Origin: Rhodoferax ferrireducens
GTDB taxonomy: Bacteria > Pseudomonadota > Gammaproteobacteria > Burkholderiales > Burkholderiaceae_C
Length of the DNA: 64,000 nucleotides
Assembly: GCA_002083775.1 (NCBI GenBank)
Contig: MTEI01000001.1
Span: forward strand, 1 to 64,000
Reading direction: 5' to 3'
Shown: positions 2,597-63,726 of the stretch, one piece after another
Position numbering within the stretch: position 1 is the stretch's first letter
How the letters are laid out: each line of letters opens with the position of its first letter
Notes under the pieces: generated by a model
What the model was told of the DNA's origin: nothing
Seen by the model: only the letters and a program-made list of their open reading frames with translations
Database searches by the model: none
Program-made: the position numbers and the translations under genes

Positions 2597-4177
2597 TTGT
2601 TTGAACCTGCCCACTCGCGCCCTGCGGCGCTGATGCCGCTGTTGCTGGCTCTTGCCGCCGGCGGGTGCCAGGCCGCCAGCACGGCTTGGCCGTTTGCCAC
2701 GTTGCCCGCGCTGGCCGTTTTGGGCATTGCCCGAGGGCAGCCCGTTTGGTGGCTGCAGTCGCTGTCCATGGCGGTTTTGGTCCTGCTGCTGGTGCGCGCA
2801 ACGTCTGCCCGTCAGGCAGCTTGGCGGGGGTGGCTGTTTGGCTGGGCATGGTTGTCAATGACGTTTGCCTGGCTGTTTACCTCCATGCATACCTATGGCG
2901 GATTGCACGCGGTGTTGGCCGGGTTGGCGGTGCTGTTGCTGGCGGGTGCCTTGGCAGTTTATTACGCCGCAGCTTGTTGGTCTTTTTGGCCTCTAGCCCC
3001 TATGCATAAAGGACTAGCAGCTATTGTTTTCGGTTCCTTGTGGTTGCTCGCCGAGTTAGCCAGGGGCCAGTGGCTGACCGGGTTTGGTTGGGGTGCTGTG
3101 GGGTATGCGCATCTGGATGGCCCTTTGCAGGCACTGCTGGGCTGGGTGGGCATGTACGGCGTCACTTTTGCAGCGGCCTTGCTGGCGGCACTGTTGGCCA
3201 CCGTATTGACTGCGCCGGCTCGGGCCGACAAAGTGATCTCGCTGGGGTTGCTGCTGGCCTTGTTGGGGCTGCCAATGGCTTTGCCTGCGACCGGTGGCAC
3301 GACCCAGGGTGAACTCAGCGTGACCCTGTTGCAGGGCAATATCGCCCAGGAAGAAAAATTTGAGCCCGCCACCGGCGTGCTCAACGCCTTGCAGTGGTAT
3401 GGCGCGCAGTTGCAGGCCAATGACAGTGCCCTCATCATCACCCCTGAGACCGCGATGCCGGTGCTGCCCGAGCAACTGCCCGCGGGCTACTGGCAGGCGC
3501 TGCAAACGCGGTTTGCGCAGGGTGACCAGGCGGCGCTGATCGGCATACCGCTGGGCAGCTTTGCCAGCGGCTACACCAACTCGGTGGTGGGTTTCAAGCC
3601 CGGTCAGGCGGACTTCTGGCGCTATGACAAACACCACCTGGTGCCTTTCGGCGAATTTATTCCACCCATGTTTCGCTGGTTCACCGACCTGATGCACATT
3701 CCGCTGGGCGATTTCAGCCGCGGCGCGCTGCCGCAGCCGACGTTTGACTGGCAAGGCCAGCGTCTGGCGGCCACGGTTTGTTATGAAAACCTGTACAGCA
3801 ACGAATTGGCCACCCAGTTTGTCGATGCCGCCAAGGCCCCCACCATGCTGGTCAACATCAGCAACCTGGGCTGGTTTGGCGAGCACCTGGCCATGGACCA
3901 GCATCTGCAGATTGCCCGCACCCGGTCGCTGGAATTTGACCGGCCCTTCCTGCTGGCCACCAATACCGGGCAAACGGCCATCGTTGATCACCGCGGGCGC
4001 ATCACCCACATCGCCCCGGCGCATACCGCGGTGGCTCTGCATGGCACGGTGCAGGGGCGCACCGGGCTGACGCCTTATGCTGCATGGGTGGCCAGGTTCG
4101 GGCTGTGGCCACTGTGGGGTACGGCGCTGGCGATCGTCTTGGGTGCCGTGCTGATGCGCCGCAAGCGCGTGCGTTGA
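2597..4177 (+). CDS. lnt: apolipoprotein N-acyltransferase
   Basis: Lnt transfers the third acyl chain to the N-terminal cysteine of lipoproteins in the inner membrane. The 526-residue protein has several N-terminal membrane helices (about residues 10-230) and a C-terminal nitrilase-like domain. The expected catalytic triad is visible: Glu284 (ITPETAMP), Lys345 ([12 protein letters not shown]) and Cys395 (ATVCYEN). The start is TTG. Between two membrane segments, residues of about 131-144 ([14 protein letters not shown]) are encoded by a copy of the dispersed palindromic repeat described elsewhere in this annotation, inserted in frame without breaking the gene. Confidence 0.93.
2989..3026 (-). 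repeat. dispersed palindromic element, copy 1, inside lnt
   Basis: The sequence runs GCCTCTAGCCCC..TATGCATAAAGGACTAGCAGCTATTG. It has the family pattern: a GCCTCTAG end, an inverted CCCTTA/AAGGG core and an AGCTATT end. Orientation is defined as plus when the AGCTA end comes first; this copy is reversed. It is translated in frame as [12 protein letters not shown]. Confidence 0.85.
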
Positions 4178-5373: not shown

Positions 5374-7526
5374 GAAACCTCCTCGTTGAATTGTTTGTGG
5401 AAGAACTGCCGCCCAAGGCGCTCAAGAAGCTCGGTGAAGCCTTTGCCAGCCAGCTGACCGAGCAACTGCGCGGCCTGGGCCTGGCCAGTGCCGACTCGGT
5501 GACCACCGCATTCGCCTCGCCGCGTCGTCTGGGCGCACACGTCACCCATGTGGCAGCCAAAGCGGCTGACAAGGCGCTGCAGCAAAAGCTGATGCCGGTG
5601 AGTGTGGGTCTCGATGTCAACGGCCTGGCCACGCCTGCGCTGCTCAAAAAGTTGCAGGCACTCGGCGCCGATGTGTCCGACCCGGTGTTTGCCGTGGCGG
5701 CGCTGCGCAAAGCGCCGGACGGCAAGGCTGAGGCGCTGTTTTATGACAGCCTGGTCAGCGGTGCCACGCTGGATGTGGGCCTGCAGCAGGCGCTGGACGT
5801 GGCGCTGGCCAAGCTGCCCATCCCCAAGGTGATGAGTTACCAGCTGGAGGCAGATTGCGAACTGCCCGGTTGGAGCAGCGTGAATTTTGTACGCCCGGCG
5901 CATGGCCTGGTGGCTTTGCATGGCGACACCGTGGTGCCGGTCAAGGTGCTGGGCCTCACGGCAGGCAACACCACACAGGGCCACCGGTTTGAAGCCGCCA
6001 AATCGCCGGTGGTGCTGGCCAATGCCGACAGTTACGCCCAGACCTTGCTCGATGACGGTGCCGTGATGGCCAGTTTTGCAGACCGCCGCGCCGACATCGT
6101 TCAACAGCTCAATCAGGCTGCAGCCCTTATAGGACATGGGGTAAGCGCTATTGAAGATGAAGAATTGTTGGATGAGGTGACGGCTCTGGTCGAGCGCCCG
6201 AATGTGCTGGTGTGTGAGTTTGAGCCGCAGTTTCTGGCGGTACCGCAAGAGTGCCTGATCCTGACCATGAAGGCCAACCAGAAGTACTTTCCGCTGCTCG
6301 ATGCGCAGGGAAAACTCACCAACCAGTTTTTGGTGGTCAGCAACATCAGCCCGGCGGACGCCAGCGCGGTGGTGGGGGGCAACGAGCGGGTGGTGCGCCC
6401 GCGCCTGGCGGATGCCAAGTTTTTCTATGACCAGGACCGCAAGAAATCGCTGGCCGCACGCGTGGCCGGGCTCGACAAAGTGGTGTATCACAACAAACTC
6501 GGCACCCAGGGCGAGCGCATGGGCCGTGTGTGTGACACAGCGCGCGCCGTTGCCGAACTGCTGGAGCCCGCCAGCCCGGCAGCCGAGGCAGGCGCGTTGG
6601 TGCGCCAGGCCGACATGGCCGCGCGCCTGGCCAAAACCGATTTGCTGACCGACATGGTCGGCGAGTTCCCTGAGCTGCAAGGCATCATGGGTGGTTATTA
6701 CGCGCTCAACGACGGCTTGAGCCTGGAGGTGGCGCAAGCCATTGAAGACCACTACAAGCCGCGTTTTGCGGGTGATGCGTTGCCGCGCAACCTGACCGGG
6801 GTGGTGGTGGCGCTGGCCGACAAGCTGGAAACGCTGGTGGGCCTGTTTGGCATCGGCAACCTGCCCACGGGCGACAAAGACCCGTTTGCGCTGCGCCGCC
6901 ATGCGCTGGGCGTGATCCGCATGCTGGTCGAGAAAGACCTGCCGCTGAGCCTGAAGGATCTGCTGGCCGCTGCCACCCCGGTGTTTGGCGACAAGATCGT
7001 GGACGCCAGCGCGGCGTTGACGGACTTCATTTTTGAGCGCCTGGCCGGTTCGCTGCGTGAGCAGGGTTACAGCGCGCTGGAGGTGGACGCGGTGCTGGCT
7101 CTCAAGCCGCAGCGCCTGGGTGATGTGCCCAAACGCCTGGCAGCGGTGCGTGCCTTTACCGCCCTGCCAGAAGCCCCGGCGCTGGCTGCCGCCAACAAAC
7201 GTATCAGCAACATCTTGAAAAAAGCTGACGCCGCCGCAGTGGCTGATGCCCATGTGAGTGAACTGCTGTTGCAGGAACCCGCCGAAATCGCGCTTTACGC
7301 TGCCATGCAAGACATCACCCCACGCGCCCAGGCGCAGTTTGTGGCCGGTGACTACGCCGCATCCTTGCAAACCCTGGCCGCTTTGCGTCTGCCGGTGGAC
7401 GCGTTTTTTGAAGATGTGATGGTCAACGCCGAGGCGCTGGACCTGCGCCTGAACCGCCTGGGCTTGCTGAAAACGCTGCACCTGGCGATGAACCAGGTGG
7501 CTGATCTGTCGCGCCTGGCGGCCTGA
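5370..7526 (+). CDS. glyS: glycine--tRNA ligase beta subunit
   Basis: The beta subunit carries the tRNA-binding part of tetrameric glycyl-tRNA synthetase. At 718 residues it spans the full family length, from the N-terminal [14 protein letters not shown] signature to the C-terminal DALR-type anticodon domain ([21 protein letters not shown]). The start is a GTG overlapping the glyQ stop. A degenerate copy of the dispersed palindromic repeat is read in frame near residues 249-262 ([14 protein letters not shown]), in the middle part of the protein. Confidence 0.95.
6114..6153 (-). repeat. dispersed palindromic element, copy 2, inside glyS
   Basis: The most diverged intragenic copy: CAGGCTGCAGCCCTTATAGG..CATGGGGTAAGCGCTATTG. 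The GCCCTTAT half and the GCTATT end are intact but the inner stem has mismatches. It is in reverse orientation and is translated in the same frame as the other reversed intragenic copies ([12 protein letters not shown]). Confidence 0.6.
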
Positions 7527-8119: not shown

Positions 8120-8165
8120 TGCGGCTTCCAGGCGCTATGGGTCAGGCGCGCATTTTTATTAAATC

Positions 8166-8203
8166 AATAGCTAGGAGCCCTTTCTACATAAGGGCTAGAG
8201 GCC
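8166..8203 (+). repeat. dispersed palindromic element, copy 3, gmhB-plsC gap
   Basis: AATAGCTAGGAGCCCTTTCT..ACATAAGGGCTAGAGGCC. It is an almost perfect hairpin (AGCCCTT / AAGGGCT). It fills most of the gap before plsC, and its AGAGG end lies about 15 bases upstream of the plsC ATG, so it may influence translation initiation. Confidence 0.9.
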
Positions 8204-8213
8204 TAAAAGGCAT

Positions 8214-8951
8214 ATGACAACCTGGCTGCGTTCGGTGCTGCACTTGCTGTGGATGGCGGTCACCGTCATCCCCTGGACGCTGGCGGTGCTGCTGGTGTCG
8301 GTGTTTGCCTCGCGCACCACCACCTGGTGGGTGGCGGTGAACTGGTTTCGGGTGGTGATGTGGGGCACGCGGCATATTCTGGGCGTGCGCATGGAAGTGC
8401 AGGGCCAAGACAACCTGCCACTGGGCAAGAGCAGCGCGGCGGTGCTGCTGGCCAAACACCAGTCGACGCTGGAAACGCTCTGGCTGCCCACCCTCATGTC
8501 GCACCCGCTGGCCTTTGTGTTCAAACGTGAGCTGCTCAGCATTCCGTTTTTTGGCTGGTCGATGGCGCGCCTCGACATGATCCGCATCGACCGCGAGTCG
8601 CGCACGGTGGCCATGAAACACGTCATCGACCAGGGCAAGCGCCTGCTGGCCCAGGGCAACTGGGTCATCATGTTCCCGGAAGGCACGCGTATCCCGCGCG
8701 GCGAGGCGGGCACCTACCAGACGGCCGGCACGCGTCTGGCGGTGGAAAGTGGTGCGCCAGTGGTGCCGATCGCGGTGGCCACCGCGCGCTGCTGGCCCAA
8801 GGAAGGTTTTGTCAAGCACGCGGGTGTGGTGCGCGTGTCGATTGGCCCGCTGATGGAAAGTACCGGGCGCGACCCCAAAGCGTTGATGCGCGAAGCCCAG
8901 GCCTGGATCGAGGCCGAGATGCGCCGCATCGACCCTGAAGCCTACCGTTGA
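8214..8951 (+). CDS. plsC: 1-acyl-sn-glycerol-3-phosphate acyltransferase
   Basis: Converts lysophosphatidate to phosphatidate at the inner membrane. The 245-residue protein has an N-terminal membrane segment (about residues 10-30). The PlsC motifs are present: His82 with KHQSTLETLW (the H-x4-D/E type acyltransferase motif), then FPEGTRIPRGE as the phosphate-binding block III and VPIAVATARCWP. Its start follows a copy of the dispersed repeat. It is probably co-transcribed with gmhB and the gene downstream. Confidence 0.92.
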   Translation: MTTWLRSVLHLLWMAVTVIPWTLAVLLVSVFASRTTTWWVAVNWFRVVMWGTRHILGVRMEVQGQDNLPLGKSSAAVLLAKHQSTLETLWLPTLMSHPLAFVFKRELLSIPFFGWSMARLDMIRIDRESRTVAMKHVIDQGKRLLAQGNWVIMFPEGTRIPRGEAGTYQTAGTRLAVESGAPVVPIAVATARCWPKEGFVKHAGVVRVSIGPLMESTGRDPKALMREAQAWIEAEMRRIDPEAYR

Positions 8952-8972: not shown

Positions 8973-9878
8973 ATGTTTCCATTGTTGCGCTTCACGCGCG
9001 ATCTTTTTGAGCCAAATCGGCCTCTAGCCCTTATTGATCATGGGCAAGTAGCTCCTGAAAAAGAAGCGGACTTTGCCCATCCACAAGCCAGCCGCGAGGT
9101 GCTGCTGGGCCAGACGCGGGTGGCGTATCTCTTCAATCGGGGGCAGCGGCGCAGCATCGGTTTCAGCGTCGGACCAGATGGCCTGGCGGTGCGCGCGCCC
9201 AAGTGGGTCACGCTACGCGATGTGGATGCCGCGCTGCAAACCAAGGCCGACTGGATTTTGCGCAAGTTGCAGGAAAGCCGCGAGCGCCACGCCAAGCTGG
9301 CTGCCCAGGTGATCGTCTGGCAAGACGGTGCCACCATGCCCTTTTTGGGGCAGATCCTGACCGTGCGGCTGGACCCCGAGCACCGCTTTGGCGCAGGCGG
9401 TGCCGCCCTTTTCTGTGTGGGGGAGGGCGCTGGGGCAAGCGAGGTCAATGTCAGCAGCGTGGCTGGCTTGTCAGCGCCTGGGTTGGCGTTGGAACTGCGC
9501 GTCAGCCTGCCGCACCATGCCAGCGCCCAGCAGATTCGTGACAGCGTGCAGGCTTGGCTGATGCGTCAGGCCAAATCGCTATTCCAGCAGCGGCTGGACC
9601 ACTATGCCCCGCTGGTGGGTGTGCAGTGGAAAAAACTCAGCCTGAGCAATGCCGGCACACGCTGGGGCAGTGCCAAGAACGATGGCAGCATCCGGCTGAA
9701 CTGGCGGCTGGTGTTTTTCAGGTTGTCGGTGCTGGACTACGTGGTGGCGCATGAGCTCAGCCACCTGCGGGTGATGGACCACAGCCCGCGCTTCTGGGAC
9801 ACGGTGCGCGCCGTGGTGCCAGACTATGCCGTGCAGCGCGCGCAACTCAAAAGCGAGCTGGTGCCCAAGTGGGATTGA
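8973..9878 (+). CDS. YgjP-family putative zinc metalloprotease/hydrolase
   Basis: A DUF45/YgjP-like protein related to SprT/M48 metallopeptidases. The zinc motif is YVVAHELSHLRVMDHSPRFW near the C-terminus, preceded by the family signature TRWGSAKNDGSIRLNWRL. The ATG used here has GGCAGG upstream at reasonable spacing; a TTG three codons earlier is possible. Residues of about 15-30 (NRPLALIDHGQVAPE) come from an in-frame copy of the dispersed repeat, so the N-terminal segment is atypical. A proteolytic substrate is not known for the family. Confidence 0.85.
   Translation: MFPLLRFTRDLFEPNRPLALIDHGQVAPEKEADFAHPQASREVLLGQTRVAYLFNRGQRRSIGFSVGPDGLAVRAPKWVTLRDVDAALQTKADWILRKLQESRERHAKLAAQVIVWQDGATMPFLGQILTVRLDPEHRFGAGGAALFCVGEGAGASEVNVSSVAGLSAPGLALELRVSLPHHASAQQIRDSVQAWLMRQAKSLFQQRLDHYAPLVGVQWKKLSLSNAGTRWGSAKNDGSIRLNWRLVFFRLSVLDYVVAHELSHLRVMDHSPRFWDTVRAVVPDYAVQRAQLKSELVPKWD
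9016..9056 (-). repeat. dispersed palindromic element, copy 4, inside the YgjP-family gene
   Basis: AATCGGCCTCTAGCCCTTAT..TGATCATGGGCAAGTAGCTCC. It is in reverse orientation and is read in the common frame as RPLALIDHGQVAPE. It lies within the first 30 codons, upstream of the conserved domain. Confidence 0.9.
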
Positions 9879-16268: not shown

Positions 16269-16282
16269 TTGACTTAACTATG

Positions 16283-16319
16283 AATAGCTACTCACCCTTT
16301 ATCCATAAGGGCTAGAGGC
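16283..16319 (+). repeat. dispersed palindromic element, copy 5, aceK-thiolase gap
   Basis: AATAGCTACTCACCCTTTAT..CCATAAGGGCTAGAGGC in plus orientation. It occupies the gap before the thiolase gene, which has its own ribosome binding site (AGAAGGA) further downstream. Confidence 0.9.
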
Positions 16320-16347
16320 ATATTTGTTATATAAGAAGGACTGAGAT

Positions 16348-17529
16348 ATGACAGACGCGATTGTGATCGTAAGCGCCGCCCGCACCCCCATGGGCAGCTT
16401 TCAGGGCGACTTCTCGGCGCTGGCCGCGCATGACCTGGGCGCCGCCGCCATCCGCGCGGCGGTCGAGCGCGCCGGCATCGCGCCCGACTCGGTGAACGAG
16501 GTGCTGTTTGGCAACGTGCTCTCAGCCGGCCAGGGCCAGGCCCCGGCGCGCCAGGCTGCGCTCAAGGCTGGGTTGCCGATCAGCACCGGGGCGGTGACGC
16601 TGTCCAAAATCTGTGGCTCGGGCATGCGCAGCGCCATGTTTGGCCACGACATGCTGCTGGCTGGCTCGGCGGATGTGCTGGTCACCGGCGGCATGGAAAG
16701 CATGACCAACGCACCCTACTTGCTGCAAAAAGGGCGCGCTGGCTATCGCATTGGCCACGACCGCATTTTTGACCACATGATGCTCGACGGCCTGGAAGAC
16801 GCCTACGACGTGGGCCGCTCCATGGGCACGTTTGGTGAAGACTGCGCCGCCAAATTCGGCTTCACTCGCGAGCAGCAAGACGCCTATGCGATTGCCAGCG
16901 TGACCCGCGCGCAAAACGCCATCAGCTCGGGCGCGTTTGCCCCCGAGATCACGCCGGTCACCGTCAAGGGCCGTGCGGGTGACAAGGTGATCTGCATCGA
17001 CGAGGGCCCGGGCCGCATCAAGCTCGACAAGATCACCAGCCTGAAACCCGCCTTCAAGAAGGACGGCACCATCACCGCCGCCAGCAGCTCCAGCATCAAC
17101 GACGGCGCAGCGGCCATGGTGCTGATGCGCGAATCGACGGCACGCAAGCTGGGCTGCAAGCCGCTGGCGCGCTTGGTGGCGCACGCCGTGCACGCGCAGG
17201 AGCCTGCCTGGTTTTCCACCGCGCCGGTCGGCTCGGTGCGCAAGGTGCTGGCCAAGGCGGGCTGGGCGGTGGGCGATGTGGATTTGTGGGAGGTGAACGA
17301 AGCTTTTGCGGTGGTGGCGATGGCGCTGATGCACGACCTGGGCCTGAGCCATGAGGTGGTGAATGTCAACGGTGGTGCCTGTGCGCTGGGGCATCCGATT
17401 GGTGCGTCAGGTGCGCGCATCATGGTCACGCTGATGTACGCGCTGCAGGCGCGTGGGCTCAAAAAAGGCGTGGCGACGCTGTGTATTGGGGGCGGGGAGG
17501 CGACGGCTGTGGCGCTTGAGATGATTTAA
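16348..17529 (+). CDS. acetyl-CoA C-acetyltransferase (thiolase)
   Basis: A 393-residue type II (biosynthetic-type) thiolase that condenses two acetyl-CoA to acetoacetyl-CoA, or cleaves it in catabolism. The nucleophile Cys89 lies in KICGSGMR, His349 in ACALGHPIGASGARI and the acid/base Cys379 in TLCIGGGEA. The product of leucine or ketone-body breakdown is a plausible substrate given the neighbouring acyl-CoA dehydrogenases. It has AGAAGGA upstream of the ATG. Confidence 0.93.
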   Translation: MTDAIVIVSAARTPMGSFQGDFSALAAHDLGAAAIRAAVERAGIAPDSVNEVLFGNVLSAGQGQAPARQAALKAGLPISTGAVTLSKICGSGMRSAMFGHDMLLAGSADVLVTGGMESMTNAPYLLQKGRAGYRIGHDRIFDHMMLDGLEDAYDVGRSMGTFGEDCAAKFGFTREQQDAYAIASVTRAQNAISSGAFAPEITPVTVKGRAGDKVICIDEGPGRIKLDKITSLKPAFKKDGTITAASSSSINDGAAAMVLMRESTARKLGCKPLARLVAHAVHAQEPAWFSTAPVGSVRKVLAKAGWAVGDVDLWEVNEAFAVVAMALMHDLGLSHEVVNVNGGACALGHPIGASGARIMVTLMYALQARGLKKGVATLCIGGGEATAVALEMI

Positions 17530-17532
17530 TTG

Positions 17533-17570
17533 TTATAGCATTCAGCCCTTTATATATAAGGGCTAGAGCC
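17533..17570 (+). repeat. dispersed palindromic element, copy 6, thiolase-acyl-CoA dehydrogenase gap
   Basis: TTATAGCATTCAGCCCTTTA..TATATAAGGGCTAGAGCC in plus orientation, with a long AGCCCTTTAT / ATAAGGGCT-type stem. It starts just after the thiolase stop and precedes the larger hairpin in the same gap. Confidence 0.88.
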
Positions 17571-17600
17571 GTTTTTGATGCGCATTTTGTAGCCTGGCGA

Positions 17601-26709: not shown

Positions 26710-26721
26710 ATACTATTGACT

Positions 26722-26760
26722 AAATAGCTACTCGCCCTTATTGGGTAAGGGCTGGAGCCT
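26722..26760 (+). repeat. dispersed palindromic element, copy 7, obg-proB gap
   Basis: AAATAGCTACTCGCCCTTATTGGG..TAAGGGCTGGAGCCT in plus orientation. Its right end, GGGCTGGAGCC, places a GGAG seven to nine bases upstream of the proB ATG, where a ribosome binding site is expected. Confidence 0.92.
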
Positions 26761-26764
26761 GAAA

Positions 26765-27901
26765 ATGCTTAAAGATTTTGATTCGGCCATTTTGCGTGAT
26801 GCGCGCCGTGTGGTGGTCAAGGTGGGCTCCAGCCTGGTCACCAACGAAGGCCGGGGTCTGGACGAGGCGGCCATTGGTGAATGGTGCCGCCAGATGTCGC
26901 TGCTGGTGCGCGAGGGGCGCGAAGTCATCATGGTGTCCAGCGGCGCCATTGCCGAGGGCATGAAACGCCTGGGCTGGACCACCCGCCCGCATCAAGTGCA
27001 CGAGCTGCAGGCCGCCGCCGCCGTTGGCCAGATGGGCCTGGCGCAGATGTACGAGACCAAGTTGCGCGAAAACGGCCTGGGCAGCGCCCAGGTGCTGCTG
27101 ACGCATGCCGATCTGGCCGACCGCGAGCGCTACCTGAACGCGCGCTCGACGCTGCTGACCTTGCTCAAGCTCGGGGTGCTGCCCGTCATTAACGAAAACG
27201 ACACGGTGGTCAACGACGAAATCAAGTTTGGGGACAACGACACCTTGGGTGCGCTGGTCGCCAATCTCGTGGAAGCCGATGCGCTGGTGATCCTGACCGA
27301 CCAGAAAGGGCTCTACACCGCCGACCCGCGCAAAGACACTTCCGCACAGTTTGTGCATGTGGCGCAAGCTGGTGATGCGGCGCTGGAAGCCATGGCAGGC
27401 GGCGCAGGCTCCAGCTTGGGTCGTGGCGGCATGATCACCAAGATTCTGGCGGCCAAGCGGGCGGCGGGTTCCGGCGCTTCCACCGTGATCGCCTGGGGCC
27501 GTGAGCCGGATGCGCTGTTACGCCTGTGCGAGGGCGAGTCGATTGGTACGTTGTTGATCGCACCAACGCAAAAAACGCAGGCGCGCAAGCAATGGATCGC
27601 TGACCACCTGCAGATGCGGGGCTCGGTGACGGTGGATGCCGGTGCGGTGAAAAAACTGCGCAGCGACGGCTCCAGCCTGCTGCCGATTGGCATGACCGGT
27701 GTGGACGGCGAGTTTTCACGCGGCGATGTGATTGCCATCCGCTCCGACGACGGTCTGGAGGTGGCGCGTGGCCTGGCCAATTACGCCAGCGCCGAGGCGC
27801 GCCTGATCTGCCGCAAACCGTCAAGCCAGTTCGAGCAACTGCTGGGTTATTCAGCCGAGCCCGAGATGGTGCACCGCGACAACATGGTGCTGAGTAGATA
27901 G
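26765..27901 (+). CDS. proB: glutamate 5-kinase
   Basis: The first enzyme of proline synthesis, 378 residues. The amino-acid kinase domain ([40 protein letters not shown]) is followed by a C-terminal PUA domain (about 280-370). The ATG after the palindromic element is preferred; an upstream GTG within the element is unlikely. The element's GGAG appears to serve as the ribosome binding site. It converges on the CNP1-like gene with five bases between stops. Confidence 0.95.
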
Positions 27902-33197: not shown

Positions 33198-33213
33198 CTG
33201 ATTTACTATGTTA

Positions 33214-33252
33214 AAAATAGCTGCTAGCCCTTATTGAATAAGGGCTAGAGCA
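33214..33252 (+). repeat. dispersed palindromic element, copy 8, prfA-prmC gap
   Basis: AAAAATAGCTGCTAGCCCTTATTG..AATAAGGGCTAGAGCAT, the best-formed copy in the window: a 12-base stem GCTAGCCCTTAT / ATAAGGGCTAG around a short loop. It lies between prfA and prmC, both on the minus strand. Confidence 0.95.
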
Positions 33253-33271
33253 TGATTTGGCTTATAAAGTG

Positions 33272-35856: not shown

Positions 35857-35926
35857 CGTGGAATTATAAAATCAACGCCATGCGGTTTTGTCACATTCCA
35901 TTTTTCTTGTTCAGGGACTTTCCCTG

Positions 35927-36196
35927 ATGGGTTTTCTGGCAGGGTTTGATCATGTCATCAATTTTCTGGCGCCTGCCATCTGGCTGGCTTTGCTGCTGCC
36001 GGTGTTGGCCAGATTCTTGATAAGAAATAAGCCTCCAGCCCTTACGCTGAAAAGGCTGATAGCTCTGCATTTCATAGTAGGTAGTGGGGTGCTGGTGGCG
36101 GGCTTGGTGGTGTTTGGGCGCGACGGAAAAATGCTCACCTACCTCGCCCTGGTGCTGGTCTTGGCCAGCAACCAGTGGTTTTGGTCACGCCGGTGA
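35927..36196 (+). CDS. small integral membrane protein, unknown function
   Basis: About 89 residues with three predicted membrane helices (VINFLAPAIWLALLLPVLARFL; FIVGSGVLVAGLVVF; YLALVLVLASNQWF). The ATG after a possible CAGGGA site is chosen; a TTG 13 codons earlier is possible. The loop NKPPALTLKRLIALH between helices one and two comes from an in-frame palindromic element. Its last 12 bases overlap the convergent ugpQ. No function can be assigned. Confidence 0.65.
   Translation: MGFLAGFDHVINFLAPAIWLALLLPVLARFLIRNKPPALTLKRLIALHFIVGSGVLVAGLVVFGRDGKMLTYLALVLVLASNQWFWSRR
36030..36067 (-). repeat. dispersed palindromic element, copy 9, inside the small membrane protein gene
   Basis: AAGCCTCCAGCCCTTACGCT..GAAAAGGCTGATAGCTCTG. 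It is in reverse orientation and in the common reading frame (KPPALTLKRLIAL). It forms the cytoplasmic or periplasmic loop between the first two helices. Confidence 0.85.
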
Positions 36197-41535: not shown

Positions 41536-44500
41536 ATGAACGCTCCCACCCCGCTCCAGTCCTTGTTGCCTGCAGGCGTTTTTGCGCCGCAAGAGCCGCA
41601 ACGCATCCGCGAGATTCCGTACAACTACACCTCTTTTTCTGACCGCGAAATCGTCATCCGGCTGCTGGGCGCACCCGCCTGGGACTGGTTGAACCGTTTG
41701 CGGGAAGAGCGCCGCACGGGTCGCTCGGCGCGCATGTTGTATGAGGTGCTGGGCGACATCTGGGTGGTGCAGCGCAACCCGTATTTGCAGGACGACCTGC
41801 TGGACAACCCGAAACGCCGCGTGCTGCTGGTGCAGGCCTTGCAACACCGCCTGTCTGAAATTGAAAAGCGCCGCAGCCCTGAATCCGACCCCGAGCGCGA
41901 CGCGCTGGTGGGGCGGCTGCTGGATGCGGCCACCAAGGCCGTGCGGGCGTTTGACGACAACTTTGTGGAAACCGCCACACTGCGGCGCAAGGCGCAGCGG
42001 CTGCTGGTCAAACTCACCGCCAAGGACAACATCAAGTTTGACGGCTTGAGCCGCGTTAGCCATGTTACGGATGCCACCGATTGGCGCGTGGAATACCCTT
42101 TTGTGGTGCTCACCCCGGACACCGAGGCCGAGATGGCCGCGCTGGTTGCGGGCTGCATTGAGCTGGGCCTGACCATCATTCCGCGTGGCGGCGGCACCGG
42201 CTACACCGGCGGTGCGATTCCGCTGACCTGGAAAAGTGTGGTCATCAACACCGAAAAGTTGGAGGCCATGACCGAGGTCGAGATGGTCCGGCTGCCCGGC
42301 TTGGATCACGAAGTGGCCACCGTCTGGAGCGAAGCCGGTGTGGTGACCAACCGTGTAGCCCACGCGGCAGAGCGCGCCGGTTATGTGTTTGCGGTCGACC
42401 CGACCTCGTCCGAGGCGTCGTGCATCGGCGGCAACATCGCCATGAACGCCGGCGGCAAAAAAGCCGTGTTGTGGGGCACGGCGCTGGACAACCTGGCCAG
42501 CTGGCGCATGGTCACACCGCAGGCCGAGTGGCTGGAAGTTACCCGCATCAACCACAACATGGGCAAGATCCATGACGTGGAAGTGGCCAGTTTCGAACTG
42601 CAGTATTTCAAAGCCGATGGCAAAACCAAGCTGCGTAAAGAGCGGCTCGACATTCCCGGCAAAACTTTCCGCAAGGAAGGCCTGGGCAAGGACGTCACCG
42701 ACAAATTCCTGAGCGGGCTGCCGGGTATTCAAAAAGAAGGTTGCGACGGCCTGATCACCAGCGCACGCTGGGTGGTGCACAAAATGCCTGCGCATACGCG
42801 CACCGTGTGCCTGGAGTTTTTTGGCAACGCCAAAGACGCCGTGCCGAGCATTGTCGAGATCAAGGACTTCATGTTCGCCGAGCAAAAGCGCAGTGGCGTG
42901 TTGCTGGCGGGCTTGGAGCATCTGGATGATCGCTATTTGAAGGCGGTGGGTTACGCCACCAAGTCCAAAAAAGGAGCCCAAGCCAACGGATCGAGCAGCA
43001 GCGTGCCCAAAATGGTGTTGTTTGGTGACATCGCCGGTGACAACGCCGATGACGTGGCGCGCGTCACCTCGGAAGTGGTGCGTATCGCCAACTCCCGCAG
43101 TGGTGAAGGTTTTATTGCTATCAGTCCGGAAGCGCGCAAAAAGTTCTGGCTGGACCGCAAACGCACCGCTGCCATCAGCAAACACACCAACGCCTTCAAG
43201 ATCAACGAAGACGTGGTGATTCCGCTGCCGCGTATGGCCGAGTACACCGACGGCATTGAGCGCATCAACATCGAACTCAGCCTGCAAAACAAACTGGCGC
43301 TACTTGATGCGCTGGACGAGTTTTTCAACCAGGGCAACCTGCCGCTGGGCCGCCAGGATGACGCGGGCGATATTTCTGCCGCCGAGTTGCTGGAAGACCG
43401 CGTGGCCCAGGCCCAAACCCTGTTGGCCGAGGTGCGCGCGTTGTGGTCGGGCTGGCTGCGCGATGTGGCGCCGCTGTTTGGCCAGCTGCAAGACCATTCC
43501 CTGCGGGCCAGTTGGAAGACGCAGATTCGCCAGCCGCTGCAGCAGATCTTCAGCGGGCTGGCGTTTGAGCCGATCCTGGCCGAGTGCAATGCCATCCACC
43601 AGCGTGTACTCAAGGGGCGCGTCTGGGTCGCGCTGCATATGCACGCCGGTGACGGCAACGTGCACACCAACATTCCGGTCAACAGCGACGACTACGCCAT
43701 GCTGCAAGCCGCGCACGGCGCGGTCAAACGCATCATGCTGCTGGCGCGCAGCCTGGACGGCGTGATCTCGGGTGAACACGGCATTGGCATCACCAAGCTG
43801 GAGTTTTTGACCGACGCCGAACTGCAGCCGTTCATCGACTACAAAGCCAAGGTTGACCCGGAAGGCCGCTTCAACAAAGGCAAGTTGCTCCGAAATACAG
43901 AGCTATCAGCCCATACAGATAAAGGGCTGGAGGCCGATTTCTTATATGCCGACCTGACCAATGCCTACACCCCCAGTTTTGGCCTGATGGGGCACGAGTC
44001 GCTGATCATGCAGCAGAGCGACATCGGCGCGATTGCCGACAGCGTGAAAGACTGCCTGCGTTGCGGCAAGTGCAAACCGGTGTGCGCCACCCATGTGCCG
44101 CGCGCCAATTTGCTCTACAGCCCGCGCAACAAGATTCTGGCCACCTCGCTCTTGGTGGAAGCCTTTTTGTACGAAGAGCAAACGCGCCGTGGCGTCAGCA
44201 TCAAACACTGGCAAGAGTTTGAAGACGTGGCCGACCACTGCACCGTGTGCCACAAGTGTCTTCAGCCCTGCCCGGTGAACATCGACTTTGGCGACGTGTC
44301 CATGAACATGCGCAACCTGTTGCGCAAGATGGGCAAAAAGAGCTTCAGGCCAGCCGGTGCGGCGGCCATGTTCATGCTCAACGCCTCCAGCCCGGAAACC
44401 ATCAAATTTGCGCGCGCCATGATGACCAAACTGGCGATTCCGGCGCAGCGGCTGGCGGCCGATGTGCTCAAGCTGGTGGCGCGCAAACAGACCAAGGCGC

Positions 44501-45465
44501 CACCCGCCACGCTGGGTGTGGCGCCGATCAAAGAGCAGATCATCCACTTTGTGAACAAAAAGCTGCCAGGTGGCCTGCCCAAAAAGACCGCGCGTGCCCT
44601 GCTGGACATCGAAGACAAAGACTACGTGCCCATCATCCGCGACCCGGGCACCACCACGGCCGAGACAGAAGCGGTGTTTTACTTCCCCGGCTGCGGTTCC
44701 GAGCGATTGTTCAGCCAGGTGGGCCTGGCCACGCAAGCCATGTTGTGGCACGCCGGGGTGCAAACGGTGCTGCCGCCGGGCTACCTGTGTTGCGGTTACC
44801 CGCAGCGCGGTGGCGGTGACTTTGACAAAGCCGAGAAGATGATCACCGACAACCGGGTACTGTTCCACCGCGTGGCCAACACGCTGAACTATCTGGACAT
44901 CAAAACCGTGGTGGTGAGCTGCGGCACGTGTTACGACCAGCTGCAGGGCTATGAGTTTGACAAGATCTTCCCCGGCAGCCGCATCATCGACATCCACGAG
45001 TATTTGCTGGAAAAACGCATCACCCTGGCCAATGCCGGCGGGTTTTTGTTCCATGACCCGTGCCACAGCCCGATGAAGCTGCAAGAACCGCTCAAAACCG
45101 TCAAGGCACTGCTGGGCGACAACGTGATCCAGTCGGACCGCTGCTGCGGTGAATCCGGCACGCTGGCGCTGAACCGGCCTGACATCTCGACCCAGGTGCG
45201 TTTTCGCAAGGAAGAAGAGATTCTGCAGGGTGAGGCGCAGCTGCGCGCCAGCGGCGCGGTGGGTGCCAAAGACAACCTGAAGATCTTGACCAGCTGCCCA
45301 GCCTGCCTGCAAGGCTTGAGCCGCTTTGGTGAAGACCTGCAAAACGGCCTGCTGGAGGCCGACTACATCGTCGTCGAGATGGCGCGCCAGATTTTGGGCG
45401 AGAACTGGATGCCCGAATACGTGCAACGTGCCAACGCCGGCGGCATTGAGCGTGTGCTGGTCTGA
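41536..45465 (+). CDS. giant FAD-linked / Fe-S oxidoreductase (DUF3683 type)
   Basis: A 1309-residue cytosolic or membrane-associated protein fused from several modules: an N-terminal DUF3683 region (about 1-180), an FAD_binding_4 (PCMH-type) domain ([39 protein letters not shown]), an FAD-oxidase C-terminal domain with [15 protein letters not shown], a double [4Fe-4S] ferredoxin segment ([38 protein letters not shown]), and two CCG (GlpC/HdrB-like) domains ([37 protein letters not shown]). It resembles D-lactate or glycolate-type dehydrogenases fused to their Fe-S subunit. The substrate is unknown. A palindromic element is read through near residue 790. Confidence 0.88.
43898..43935 (+). repeat. 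dispersed palindromic element, copy 10, inside the DUF3683 oxidoreductase gene
   Basis: CAGAGCTATCAGCCCATACA..GATAAAGGGCTGGAGGCC. It is the only intragenic copy in plus orientation. It is translated as [12 protein letters not shown] in the linker between the FAD-oxidase and ferredoxin parts. Its core GCCCATACAGATAAAGGG is identical to copy 14. Confidence 0.88.
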
Positions 45466-46462: not shown

Positions 46463-46539
46463 GGAATGCCAGTGGCACGGCACAGAAACCCACGCACCGC
46501 CGACCCACTGAGGTCGAGCCAAGGTTCGTATGTCTAATT

Positions 46540-46577
46540 GCCCTCCAGCCCTTTAAGAGTATGGGCAAGAAGCTACG
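46540..46577 (-). repeat. dispersed palindromic element, copy 11
   Basis: GCCCTCCAGCCCTTTAAGAG..TATGGGCAAGAAGCTACG, reverse orientation. Read on the other strand its core is GCCCATACTCTTAAAGGGC, close to the core of copies 10 and 14. Confidence 0.85.
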
Positions 46578-46737
46578 ATTTTTGAATACTCTGGCAAGCG
46601 GGTGCGTCAGGTCTCAACCATTGTGATGCGGTGGGGCACGGGTGCGGAATCAGGTCAAGTCAGGTGCCTGTTTGATGTCTCGTTATGATCTGGTCGCACC
46701 CACAGGCCATCGATTTCAACGCCCCATCGTGCCCTGT

Positions 46738-48263: not shown

Positions 48264-48622
48264 GCGAAACCATAGTATCTAGATGACTGCTGTCTGGAAA
48301 TTCGACAGTCGGCTTTCAGCCTGAACCTGACCCCCAACACTGCATCCAAATATGTTGAAGGAGGGTGGTGGCGTTTGCGGGCGCGGGCACCATTCGCGTG
48401 GGGTGGTGGGTGGCAAGCCATTCGTGCTGGCGAAACAATGGTAAGTCGCTCACCCAATCACTCGCCCGCGAGCGTGGGCCGGAGAACGCGAGCCACGCCG
48501 CCCGCTTGGCGTCACCTGAAGAATATATGCATTTTATGCCTCTAGCCCTTACTGGATAAGGGCTGAAAGCTATGAGTTTTATATATTCCAGCAGCCATCC
48601 GACAGACTGACCAGCCAAAAAA
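48264..48622. other. intergenic region after the cassette
   Basis: No gene is supported between the attC site and ppc. It contains palindromic copy 12. An open frame of 167 codons on the minus strand (48316-48819) runs into ppc out of frame and has no family signature. Confidence 0.5.
48538..48573 (-). repeat. dispersed palindromic element, copy 12
   Basis: GCCTCTAGCCCTTACTGG..ATAAGGGCTGAAAGCTATG in reverse orientation, with a clean AGCCCTTA / TAAGGGCT stem. It is 50 bases beyond the ppc stop. Confidence 0.92.
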
Positions 48623-52545: not shown

Positions 52546-53376
52546 ATGCGTGTGATCGTGACCCGGGTGCAGCCGCAAGCTGCGCGCTGGGTGCAACTGC
52601 TGTCGCCCCGGTTTGATGCCGTGGCTCTGCCGCTGCTGCAAACCAGTGCCCTGCCAGACCCCTCGGCGCTGAAAACCGTGGCTGAACACTGGGCGGACTA
52701 CGCCGCGGTGATGTTCGTCAGCAGCCATGCGGTGGATTTCTTTTTTAAGGAAAATCAGGCTCTAGCCCTTATGTACAAAGGGCGAGTAGCTCCTGAAACC
52801 AGAGTATGGGTGACCGGGCCAGGAACACGCGCCACGGTTCTGGCGCAGGGTGTGCCTGCTTTGCGGGTCGATTCGCCGCCCGAGACGAGCGGTCAATTTG
52901 ATTCAGAGGCGCTGTGGCAGCAGGTTCAGGGCCAGATCTCTCCCGGTGCCCGGGTGCTGATCGTGCGCGGTGACCTGCGCGATGACGGCACGCCGGATGA
53001 ACGGCTCGCAACCGATGCCCTCCCCGTGTCGGGCACGCCCGGTGCCGGGCGCGACTGGCTGGCGCAGAGCTTGCAGCAGGCGGGCGCGGTGGTGGACTTT
53101 GTGGTGGCGTACCAGCGTGGCGCGCCGGTTTGGGAACAGGCCGAGCAAGACCTGGCCAGGCAAGCCGCAGCCGATGGCTCGGTCTGGTTGTTCAGCAGCG
53201 CGCAAGCCGTGATGCACCTGCCCACGGTGTTGCCTGGTCAGAGCTGGGCCCGTGCCCGTGCGGTGGCCACCCATGCGCGGATAGCGCAGGCAGCGCGCTC
53301 GCTCGGCTTTGCGATGGTGGCTGAGTCACGCGCCACTCTGAGCGACGTGGTGGCCTCTATAGAATCGTTGGCATGA
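52546..53376 (+). CDS. hemD: uroporphyrinogen-III synthase
   Basis: Cyclises hydroxymethylbilane to uroporphyrinogen III. A 276-residue two-lobed HemD protein: VIVTRVQPQAARW at the start, VMFVSSHAVDFFF, VWVTGPGTRATVLAQGV. Two bases separate it from hemC; it overlaps hemX by four. Residues of about 70-84 (NQALALMYKGRVAPE) are encoded by an in-frame palindromic element placed at the end of a helix just before the VWVTGPGT strand. HemD sequences tolerate length change here, so activity is probably kept. Confidence 0.93.
   Translation: MRVIVTRVQPQAARWVQLLSPRFDAVALPLLQTSALPDPSALKTVAEHWADYAAVMFVSSHAVDFFFKENQALALMYKGRVAPETRVWVTGPGTRATVLAQGVPALRVDSPPETSGQFDSEALWQQVQGQISPGARVLIVRGDLRDDGTPDERLATDALPVSGTPGAGRDWLAQSLQQAGAVVDFVVAYQRGAPVWEQAEQDLARQAAADGSVWLFSSAQAVMHLPTVLPGQSWARARAVATHARIAQAARSLGFAMVAESRATLSDVVASIESLA
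52753..52795 (-). repeat. dispersed palindromic element, copy 13, inside hemD
   Basis: AATCAGGCTCTAGCCCTTAT..GTACAAAGGGCGAGTAGCTCC in reverse orientation. It is translated in the common frame as QALALMYKGRVAP. Its flanks AATCAGGCTC and GAGTAGCT match copy 14 inside the S49 peptidase gene. Confidence 0.93.
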
Positions 53377-62677: not shown

Positions 62678-63726
62678 CCGAACCTGTTGACGACGACAAA
62701 GCTGGCCCGAAGCCCTCGTCAGAATATATGCCAAATCAGGCTCAAGCCCATACAGATAAAGGGCGAGTAGCTTCCGATAGCGTAGCAAATTCTGCAGGTG
62801 CGGGCAGCTGGGAGCGTGCCACTTTGGAGAAACTGGCGTTTGCCACGCTGCACGAGCAGCGCCTGGCGCGGCGCTGGCGCATCTTCATCCGCTTGTCGTG
62901 GCTGGTCTTCCTGGTCGCACTGGCTTGGTTCGGGTTCCAACAGACGGAGGGCCAGGCCGACGTGAGCAGCCCGCACACGGCAGTGGTCGAGATCAAGGGT
63001 GAAATCGCCTCGGGCATGGAGGCCAGTGCCGAACTGATCCTCTCCTCGGTGCGCACGGCATTTGAAGACACCGGCGCGCAAGCGGTGGTGTTGCTGATCA
63101 ACTCGCCGGGCGGCAGCCCGGTGCAGGCGGGCATCATCAACGACGAAATCCGCCGCCTCAAGGCCTTGCATCAGAAACCGGTGTATGCCGTGGTGGAAGA
63201 GTCGTGTGCCTCAGCGGCGTATTACATCGCCGTTTCAGCCGACAAAATCTATGTCGACAAGGCCAGCATTGTTGGCAGCATTGGTGTGCTGATGGACGGT
63301 TTTGGCTTCACCGGGCTGATGGAGAAGCTGGGCGTAGAGCGGCGCCTGATGACCGCCGGCGAGAACAAGGGCTTTCTGGACCCGTTCAGCCCGCAGACCG
63401 AGCCGCAGCGCGAATATGCCCAGGCCTTGCTCAACCAGATTCACCAGCAGTTCATTGACGCGGTCAAAGCTGGTCGCGGTGGGCGCCTGAAAGAGACACC
63501 TGAAACCTTCAGCGGCTTGTTCTGGAGCGGCCAGCAAGCCATTGCGCTGGGCCTGGCCGACGAACTGGGCAGTGTTGACTATGTGGCGCGTGAGGTGGTC
63601 AAAGCCGAGGAAATCATCGACTACACCCGTCGCGACAACGTGGCCGAGCGCCTGGTCAAGCGTTTTGGTGCGGCGGTGGGCTCGGCGGCGGTGCAGGCGG
63701 CCAAGTCACCTGCAGCGGTGCGCTGA
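62674..63726 (+). CDS. S49 family peptidase (SppA-like)
   Basis: A 350-residue inner-membrane serine peptidase. A cytosolic N-terminus is followed by one membrane helix (about 68-88, FIRLSWLVFLVALAWFGF). The Ser180 nucleophile is in ESCASAAYYIA, with Lys232 (AGENKG) 52 residues later, the Ser/Lys spacing known for bacterial SppA. LINSPGGSPVQAG completes the fold. Residues 20-35 (PNQAQAHTDKGRVASD) come from an in-frame palindromic element in the cytosolic tail. It likely degrades cleaved signal peptides. Confidence 0.92.
   Translation: MTEPVDDDKAGPKPSSEYMPNQAQAHTDKGRVASDSVANSAGAGSWERATLEKLAFATLHEQRLARRWRIFIRLSWLVFLVALAWFGFQQTEGQADVSSPHTAVVEIKGEIASGMEASAELILSSVRTAFEDTGAQAVVLLINSPGGSPVQAGIINDEIRRLKALHQKPVYAVVEESCASAAYYIAVSADKIYVDKASIVGSIGVLMDGFGFTGLMEKLGVERRLMTAGENKGFLDPFSPQTEPQREYAQALLNQIHQQFIDAVKAGRGGRLKETPETFSGLFWSGQQAIALGLADELGSVDYVAREVVKAEEIIDYTRRDNVAERLVKRFGAAVGSAAVQAAKSPAAVR
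62733..62775 (-). repeat. dispersed palindromic element, copy 14, inside the S49 peptidase gene
   Basis: AATCAGGCTCAAGCCCATACAG..ATAAAGGGCGAGTAGCTTCC in reverse orientation, in the common frame (QAQAHTDKGRVAS). Flanks match copy 13; core matches copy 10. Confidence 0.93.

Follow-up and report, generated by a model that had tools for sequence, protein, structure and literature searches.

DNA uptake sequences, namely the DUS of the Neisseriaceae and the USS of the Pasteurellaceae, are described as occurring in hundreds to thousands of copies, both within and between genes, with an orientation bias in genes, distinct dialects and a core-genome location, and as missing from recently acquired genes (PMC2346458, PMC2397512, PMC3630211). 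The Rickettsia palindromic elements are reported as insertions of ~150 bp that form in-frame palindromic repeats inside unrelated genes (PMC10969869). REP sequences and the GTAG- and CGTC-tagged repeats are portrayed as short palindromes that often lie downstream of genes and in some cases within ORFs (PMC3733652), and the BRE of the Comamonadaceae as repeats of ~90 bp, some of them in coding sequence, which number 4 in Rhodoferax ferrireducens and no more than 29 (PMC3110155). Finally, a genome survey that found the most motif pairs in R. ferrireducens T118 lists GCTTAT(N)5AAGCG of Acidovorax ebreus among its potential novel motifs, with 44 of the 114 copies in convergent, 59 in co-oriented and 4 in divergent intergenic regions and 5 in genes (PMC5217627).

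The DNA studied here, called the window, is the whole 64-kb stretch that was analysed and comes from a Rhodoferax-like member of the Comamonadaceae (six of the nine loci found with HemD carry the name Rhodoferax). A profile search of the window yields 14 copies of an imperfect palindrome of ~61 nt:

2977..3037, + strand: copy in lnt (apolipoprotein N-acyltransferase), sense frame 1; congeners without length change
6104..6164, + strand: copy in glyS, sense frame 1
8154..8214, - strand: intergenic copy
9008..9068, + strand: copy near the N-terminus of the YgjP gene, sense frame 1; in the part omitted by the gene caller
16271..16331, - strand: intergenic copy
17522..17582, - strand: intergenic copy
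26711..26771, - strand: intergenic copy
33204..33264, - strand: intergenic copy; the orthologous copy in congener G069 has GCGC/GCGC arms
36019..36079, + strand: copy in a small conserved membrane-protein ORF (35888-36196, +), sense frame 1
43886..43946, - strand: copy in a FAD/FMN dehydrogenase gene (41536-45465, +), antisense, class A0
46529..46589, + strand: copy outside called genes, with a stop within its sense frame 1
48526..48586, + strand: intergenic copy
52746..52806, + strand: copy in hemD, sense frame 1; in relatives present, partial or eroded in place
62727..62787, + strand: copy in the N-terminal part of an S49 peptidase gene, sense frame 1; in the part omitted by the gene caller

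Gene calls stem from a home-made caller that omitted the ORF at 35888-36196 as well as the N-terminal portions of both ygjP and the S49 gene. The membrane-protein ORF has homologues in two congeners and overlaps an opposite-strand neighbour, so that a simple caller misses it. The product of the gene at 41536-45465 matches FAD-dependent dehydrogenases. At the gathering score, Rfam matches in the window were confined to one tRNA, with none for the element.

The element has the profile TT.TA.G..AAAT.GGCCTCTAGCCCTTAT..A.AAAGGGCTAGTAGCTAT..ATT..GTAG, a motif of dyad symmetry whose GC core is flanked by A-tracts, and carries 52-56 bits of information. In an 864-kb sample of the host genome (the window plus 800 kb more), 211 places pass the profile and 178 of them score at least 25, a cut-off that leaves out the remaining 33. 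Of these 178 copies, 87 lie within called genes and 69 in intergenic regions, while 14 fall into possible N-terminal extensions and 8 are at the edges of genes, with densities of 0.13 per kb in genic DNA (including extensions), 0.81 per kb between genes (including edges) and 0.2 per kb overall. Chance similarity is ruled out as their source, because the best score in a control of 170,872 bases from 29 loci in other families of the same order, all around one gene, was -1. The widest gap between copies in the sampled contig C1 (298178-344922; 46.7 kb, 32 called genes, loci L051-L054) contains none of the 178 copies; it looks like a photosynthesis gene cluster, with a GC content of 0.555 vs 0.605 and with CobN/Mg-chelatase, protochlorophyllide-reductase-type and polyprenyl synthetase domains among the ten proteins scanned.

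Among the known systems, DNA uptake sequences appear to share the most features with this element, which likewise is present in many copies within and between genes and exists in species dialects. Uptake sequences differ in being more numerous and only 10-12 nt long, whereas the element spans ~61 nt, is dyad-symmetric and occurs at 0.2 per kb. With the Rickettsia palindromic elements it shares an in-frame position within unrelated genes (87 of the 178 copies lie in called genes); unlike them, it adds only 0-2 residues in several genic copies and uses both strands. It is longer than REP repeats, seems to overlay sequence without insertion in some genes and lacks a constant GTAG or CGTC tag, no tetranucleotide at the profile ends being invariant. 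From BRE, as described, it is set apart by having hundreds of copies. The A. ebreus motif, as it appears in the available part of the survey, corresponds letter by letter to the GCGC-type core of the element and has a similar intergenic pattern, but it is mostly intergenic (5 of 114 copies in genes), and that part of the survey gives no account of mechanism, dialects or overlay. Nor do the available portions of the other literature searched contain an account of the element's mechanism or its coding copies.

Only some Comamonadaceae carry the motif in abundance. Counting core matches with one mismatch allowed and both strands summed, such that palindromic sites may count twice, we found 12 of 120 family genomes, including that of the host, above the top control count (9), as opposed to 0 of 58 genomes from other families above the top control count there (7). 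One genome from another family of the same order (G136) has six core matches vs one for its own control, several of them of the TAGCCCTTAT...ATAAGGGT type; these sites may be distantly related to the motif.

The first-pass annotation had placed a copy in hemD, a position that we confirm, and had noted that the copies in six unrelated genes share one strand and one reading frame, which it took to suggest selection for the one stop-free frame or a function of the encoded peptide. Within the window, this rule holds for lnt, glyS, the YgjP gene, the membrane-protein ORF, hemD and the S49 gene, whereas a seventh genic copy (43886-43946) is antisense. The common peptide pattern proposed for the six genes fits strictly in four of them; a single position deviates in glyS (GHGVSA), and the N is missing in lnt (FWPLAPMHKGLAA). 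Beyond the window, the rule breaks down, with the 87 genic copies comprising 45 in sense and 42 in antisense orientation and covering all six classes (S1 37, A1 28, A0 8, A2 6, S2 5, S0 3); the 14 extension copies fall into S1 (6), A1 (6), S0 (1) and S2 (1). The bias of the genic copies towards S1 and A1 is nevertheless significant when compared with a uniform distribution (chi-square p ~7e-14), though it is not restricted to one frame. The six frames are indeed not equally open, as the stop-free fraction among the 69 intergenic copies is 0.45 for A1, 0.28 for S1, 0.28 for S2, 0.12 for A2, 0.03 for A0 and 0.01 for S0. Selection for open frames is thus borne out in part by the dominance of S1 and A1, with stops explaining why A0 and S0 are seldom used. 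However, stop avoidance alone does not account for the preference for S1 over S2 (p ~1e-8), as it predicts 20.7 copies for each, compared with 37 and 5 observed. Residue acceptability must therefore matter as well.

The commonest S1 peptide (~N-x-P-L-A-L-M-x-K-G-L-V-A) is unrelated to its A1 counterpart (~I-A-x-S-P-x-x-I-R-A-x-G-Q), which is nearly as common. The tolerance of two unrelated peptides does not support a peptide function, and we discarded such a function as the main cause, since antisense frames yield unrelated peptides and the encoded residue, Gly or Ala, tracks the DNA arm of the species. The common peptide and the common frame are probably by-products of the frames that proteins tolerate.

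Comparison with two congeners shows that the copies are inherited vertically. With both flanks mapped (~80% identical), 18 of 20 copies are common to the host and G063 at a score of at least 20, and 12 of 15 to the host and G069, including its locus L186; mapping against G069 alone placed 5 of the 98 C1 copies. For pairs in which the relative scores at least 30 and the host copy at least 40, identity is higher between orthologous than between paralogous copies, with 0.757 vs 0.568 for G063 (13 pairs, permutation p 0.0002) and 0.660 vs 0.532 for G069 (11 pairs). Wholesale gene conversion among copies is ruled out, because orthologues are closer than paralogues. Within the G063 pairs, identity reaches 0.92 in the core and 0.90 in the A-tract, as compared to 0.58 in the loop, and amounts to 0.757 for the whole element vs 0.817 for the flanks.

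The arms differ between these species, with GCGC/GCGC in G069 vs GCCC/GGGC in the host. The central arm positions are C/G in 128 of 152 copies of the host and 48 of 58 copies of G063, and G/C in 55 of 73 copies of G069. Among the 11 orthologous host-G069 pairs, the G069 copy has G/C at both positions in eight cases and at one position in three; the full difference between C/G and G/C is seen in six pairs, and in the remaining pairs one of the two genomes shows it incompletely. The arm dialect has switched in this congener, and the encoded residue follows: for copies in long open frames, the S1 codon that covers the right arm specifies Gly in 31 of 37 host copies and 15 of 15 G063 copies, and Ala in 11 of 11 G069 copies. 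The DNA sequence of the motif seems to dictate the protein residues at its sites.

Whether the codons came with the element differs from gene to gene. In lnt, there is no indel in the segment among 17 sequences (that of the host and 16 of the 20 congeners fetched), with profile scores ranging from 67 (G069) to -28 (G088), and the host Lnt has no extra residues relative to the solved proteins 5n6m and 6nwr, which we take to be those of Pseudomonas and E. coli. The glyS site scores 37 in the host, 25 in G063, 26 in G064 and 23 in G091, vs less than -25 in 17 other congeners; 13 of these 17 motif-less congeners have the same length at the site, and the remaining relatives differ by +9, +9, +12 and -9 nt. 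GlyS is two residues longer than the solved structure 7yse, and its motif-less orthologues already have similar residues, contrary to the suggestion that the element adds a peptide there. An MsbA-like ABC transporter gains 0-1 residues at the motif. For hemD, nine mapped pairs, some of which represent the same genome twice, lie within 1 nt of the host length, among them relative L031, in which the motif is lost (score -27). Of 29 loci belonging to other genera, 26 have a readable segment, seven scoring at least 25, four between 12 and 24, and 15 below zero. Among these 15, six have the same length, six are shorter (by 3, 4, 4, 5, 5 and 6 residues) and three are longer (by 1, 3 and 7). The motif is present at the hemD site in seven other genera (score 28-59; loci L081, L087, L088, L093, L095, L096 and L105), indicating that this copy is old and family-wide.

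Other genes are longer at the motif, five of them by 7-17 residues, compared to the ~20 encoded by the element: PurL by 7 (at the first of its two copies), Tex by 10, TrmJ by 14, an enoyl-CoA hydratase by 16 in the best alignment and the FAD dehydrogenase by 17 relative to 27 of 29 other-family loci (13 and 19 relative to the remaining two). PurL, with its two motif copies (L069:3207-7373, 1389 aa), is 86 residues longer overall than the solved chain 1t3t_A (1303). For KdtA, two relatives whose peptide does not show the pattern are shorter by 7 and 13 residues, as judged by eye among 32 fetched of 120 listed sequences; the KdtA homologue P0216 has a far longer, different insert in the loop before VQWLIVPRH, where the host has the motif, and this insert looks like another repeat (HCERSEAIH...). 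In-frame insertion, as expected from the Rickettsia precedent invoked in the first-pass annotation, suits the FAD dehydrogenase, the hydratase and TrmJ; it does not suit lnt, glyS, the ABC transporter, HemD, which shows no consistent gain and has the same length in 6 of 15 motif-less genera, or PurL and Tex with their smaller gains. In some genes, the motif seems to overlie existing codons rather than being inserted, and both routes may have occurred.

The element also bears a signature at the DNA level. In the 148 of 178 copies that reach a score of 40, positions 6-9 read AAAT, TTTT, AAAA or ATTT in 133, and the TpA step occurs there in 3 of the 138 copies consisting only of A and T, vs 60.8 expected; avoidance is weaker in the right A/T tract (27 of 116 vs 48.6 expected). 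Positional information content in intergenic copies correlates with that in genic ones (r 0.83 for S1, 0.79 for A1), and orientation between codirectional genes is random (20 same, 24 opposite). A dialect switch with the residue following, together with A-tracts nearly devoid of TpA, therefore points to a DNA-level recognition site that is more DUS-like than Rickettsia-like. We consider it rather likely that the element is such a site, kept by a putative trans-acting factor, and that its coding effects are by-products; its presence in both orientations within genes (45 sense, 42 antisense), the inheritance of orthologous copies and the lack of net insertion in some genes are consistent with this reading. 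It would represent a dispersed recognition site of ~61 bp, each copy of which stays close to the consensus of its species, with a putative sequence-specific DNA-binding factor as the likely agent, although our search found no binding factor for the element. Both the factor and the drive are what we infer: in an uptake-like process, matching DNA would be preferentially taken up and recombined, with sites accumulating in the core genome. By analogy, the element would most likely work like a DNA uptake sequence, with a chromosome-organising binding site being nearly as likely.

Several observations stand against the recognition-site reading. With 52-56 bits, the element is far longer and sparser than known uptake sequences, and as a whole it is less conserved than its flanks (0.76 vs 0.82). 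The insertion-like gains in the FAD dehydrogenase (+17), the enoyl-CoA hydratase (+16) and TrmJ (+14), a difference of ~59 nt between the host and G069 at one intergenic site, and motif-like sequence by the 3' end of a Y1-transposase-like gene in 8 of 13 genomes also speak against it. The HemD result and the insertion-like FAD dehydrogenase pull in opposite directions.

Some of these points would suit a miniature mobile palindromic element of the Rickettsia or MITE type, which inserted in-frame long ago and then eroded, with the frames used today representing the surviving stop-free insertions. Such an origin is unlikely. The gains of 14-17 residues in TrmJ, the hydratase and the FAD dehydrogenase (17 relative to 27 of 29 loci) agree with it, as do the sporadic spread (12 of the 120 family genomes exceed the control), the 27 viral-contig stretches that contain the core pattern, and the single intergenic presence/absence locus of ~59 nt, which by eye has no clear target-site duplication. 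However, it does not predict gains of only 0-2 residues for the ABC transporter, lnt and glyS, or of 7 (first copy) and 10 in PurL and Tex, nor equal HemD length in 6 of 15 motif-less genera or different arm dialects at orthologous copies. Furthermore, a search with one GCGC-type copy gave no match among 50,697 phage records and three among 72,556 plasmid records, these three being from Comamonadaceae.

Spread by a domesticated Y1 (RAYT-like) transposase, as in REP/REPIN-like systems, is more doubtful still. A PF01797 match is found in 10 of 11 tested motif-rich genomes, including that of the host, the exception being G174, but also in 10 of 14 tested zero-count genomes. Motif-like sequence (scores 13-58) lies at the same place by the 3' end of the Y1-transposase-like gene (L249-L261) in 8 of 13 genomes, yet it looks like a single orthologous site; moreover, the profile lacks a constant GTAG-tagged end, and overlays without insertion would be unexpected. 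A RAYT link is thus possible, though non-specific.

An RNA hairpin acting in transcripts as a terminator or stabiliser, with genic copies as tolerated spill-over, is very improbable: it would fit the excess of intergenic copies in convergent regions (21 of 69, where such regions make up 41 of 401), their scarcity in divergent ones (4 of 69 vs 85 of 401) and a perfect intergenic hairpin with a z of -4.2, but orientation is random relative to transcription, AAAT and TTTT tracts swap without a matching change in the other arm, antisense genic copies are as common as sense ones, and the four genic copies among the six window copies folded (4 genic, 2 intergenic, of 14) reach z values of only -0.8 to -2.9. 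Hairpin covariation was likewise set aside, since no arm-to-arm pairing stands out among the 148 copies and the strongest covarying pairs are local.

As for the recognition-site reading, we tentatively entertain the more specific idea, which we regard as possible at best, that the Comamonadaceae harbour a third, hitherto unrecognised lineage of self-recognition DNA: a long, 61-bp dyad motif of an uptake-like or architectural kind that exists in dialects and was built by point changes over housekeeping codons, with residues in many proteins shifting along with the dialect. More generally, a peptide that is common to unrelated proteins need not imply a common protein function. If the recognition-site reading is true, a DNA recognition motif would steer which amino acids core enzymes use, and close relatives whose dialects differ would provide a natural experiment on the origin and switching of uptake or architectural motifs.
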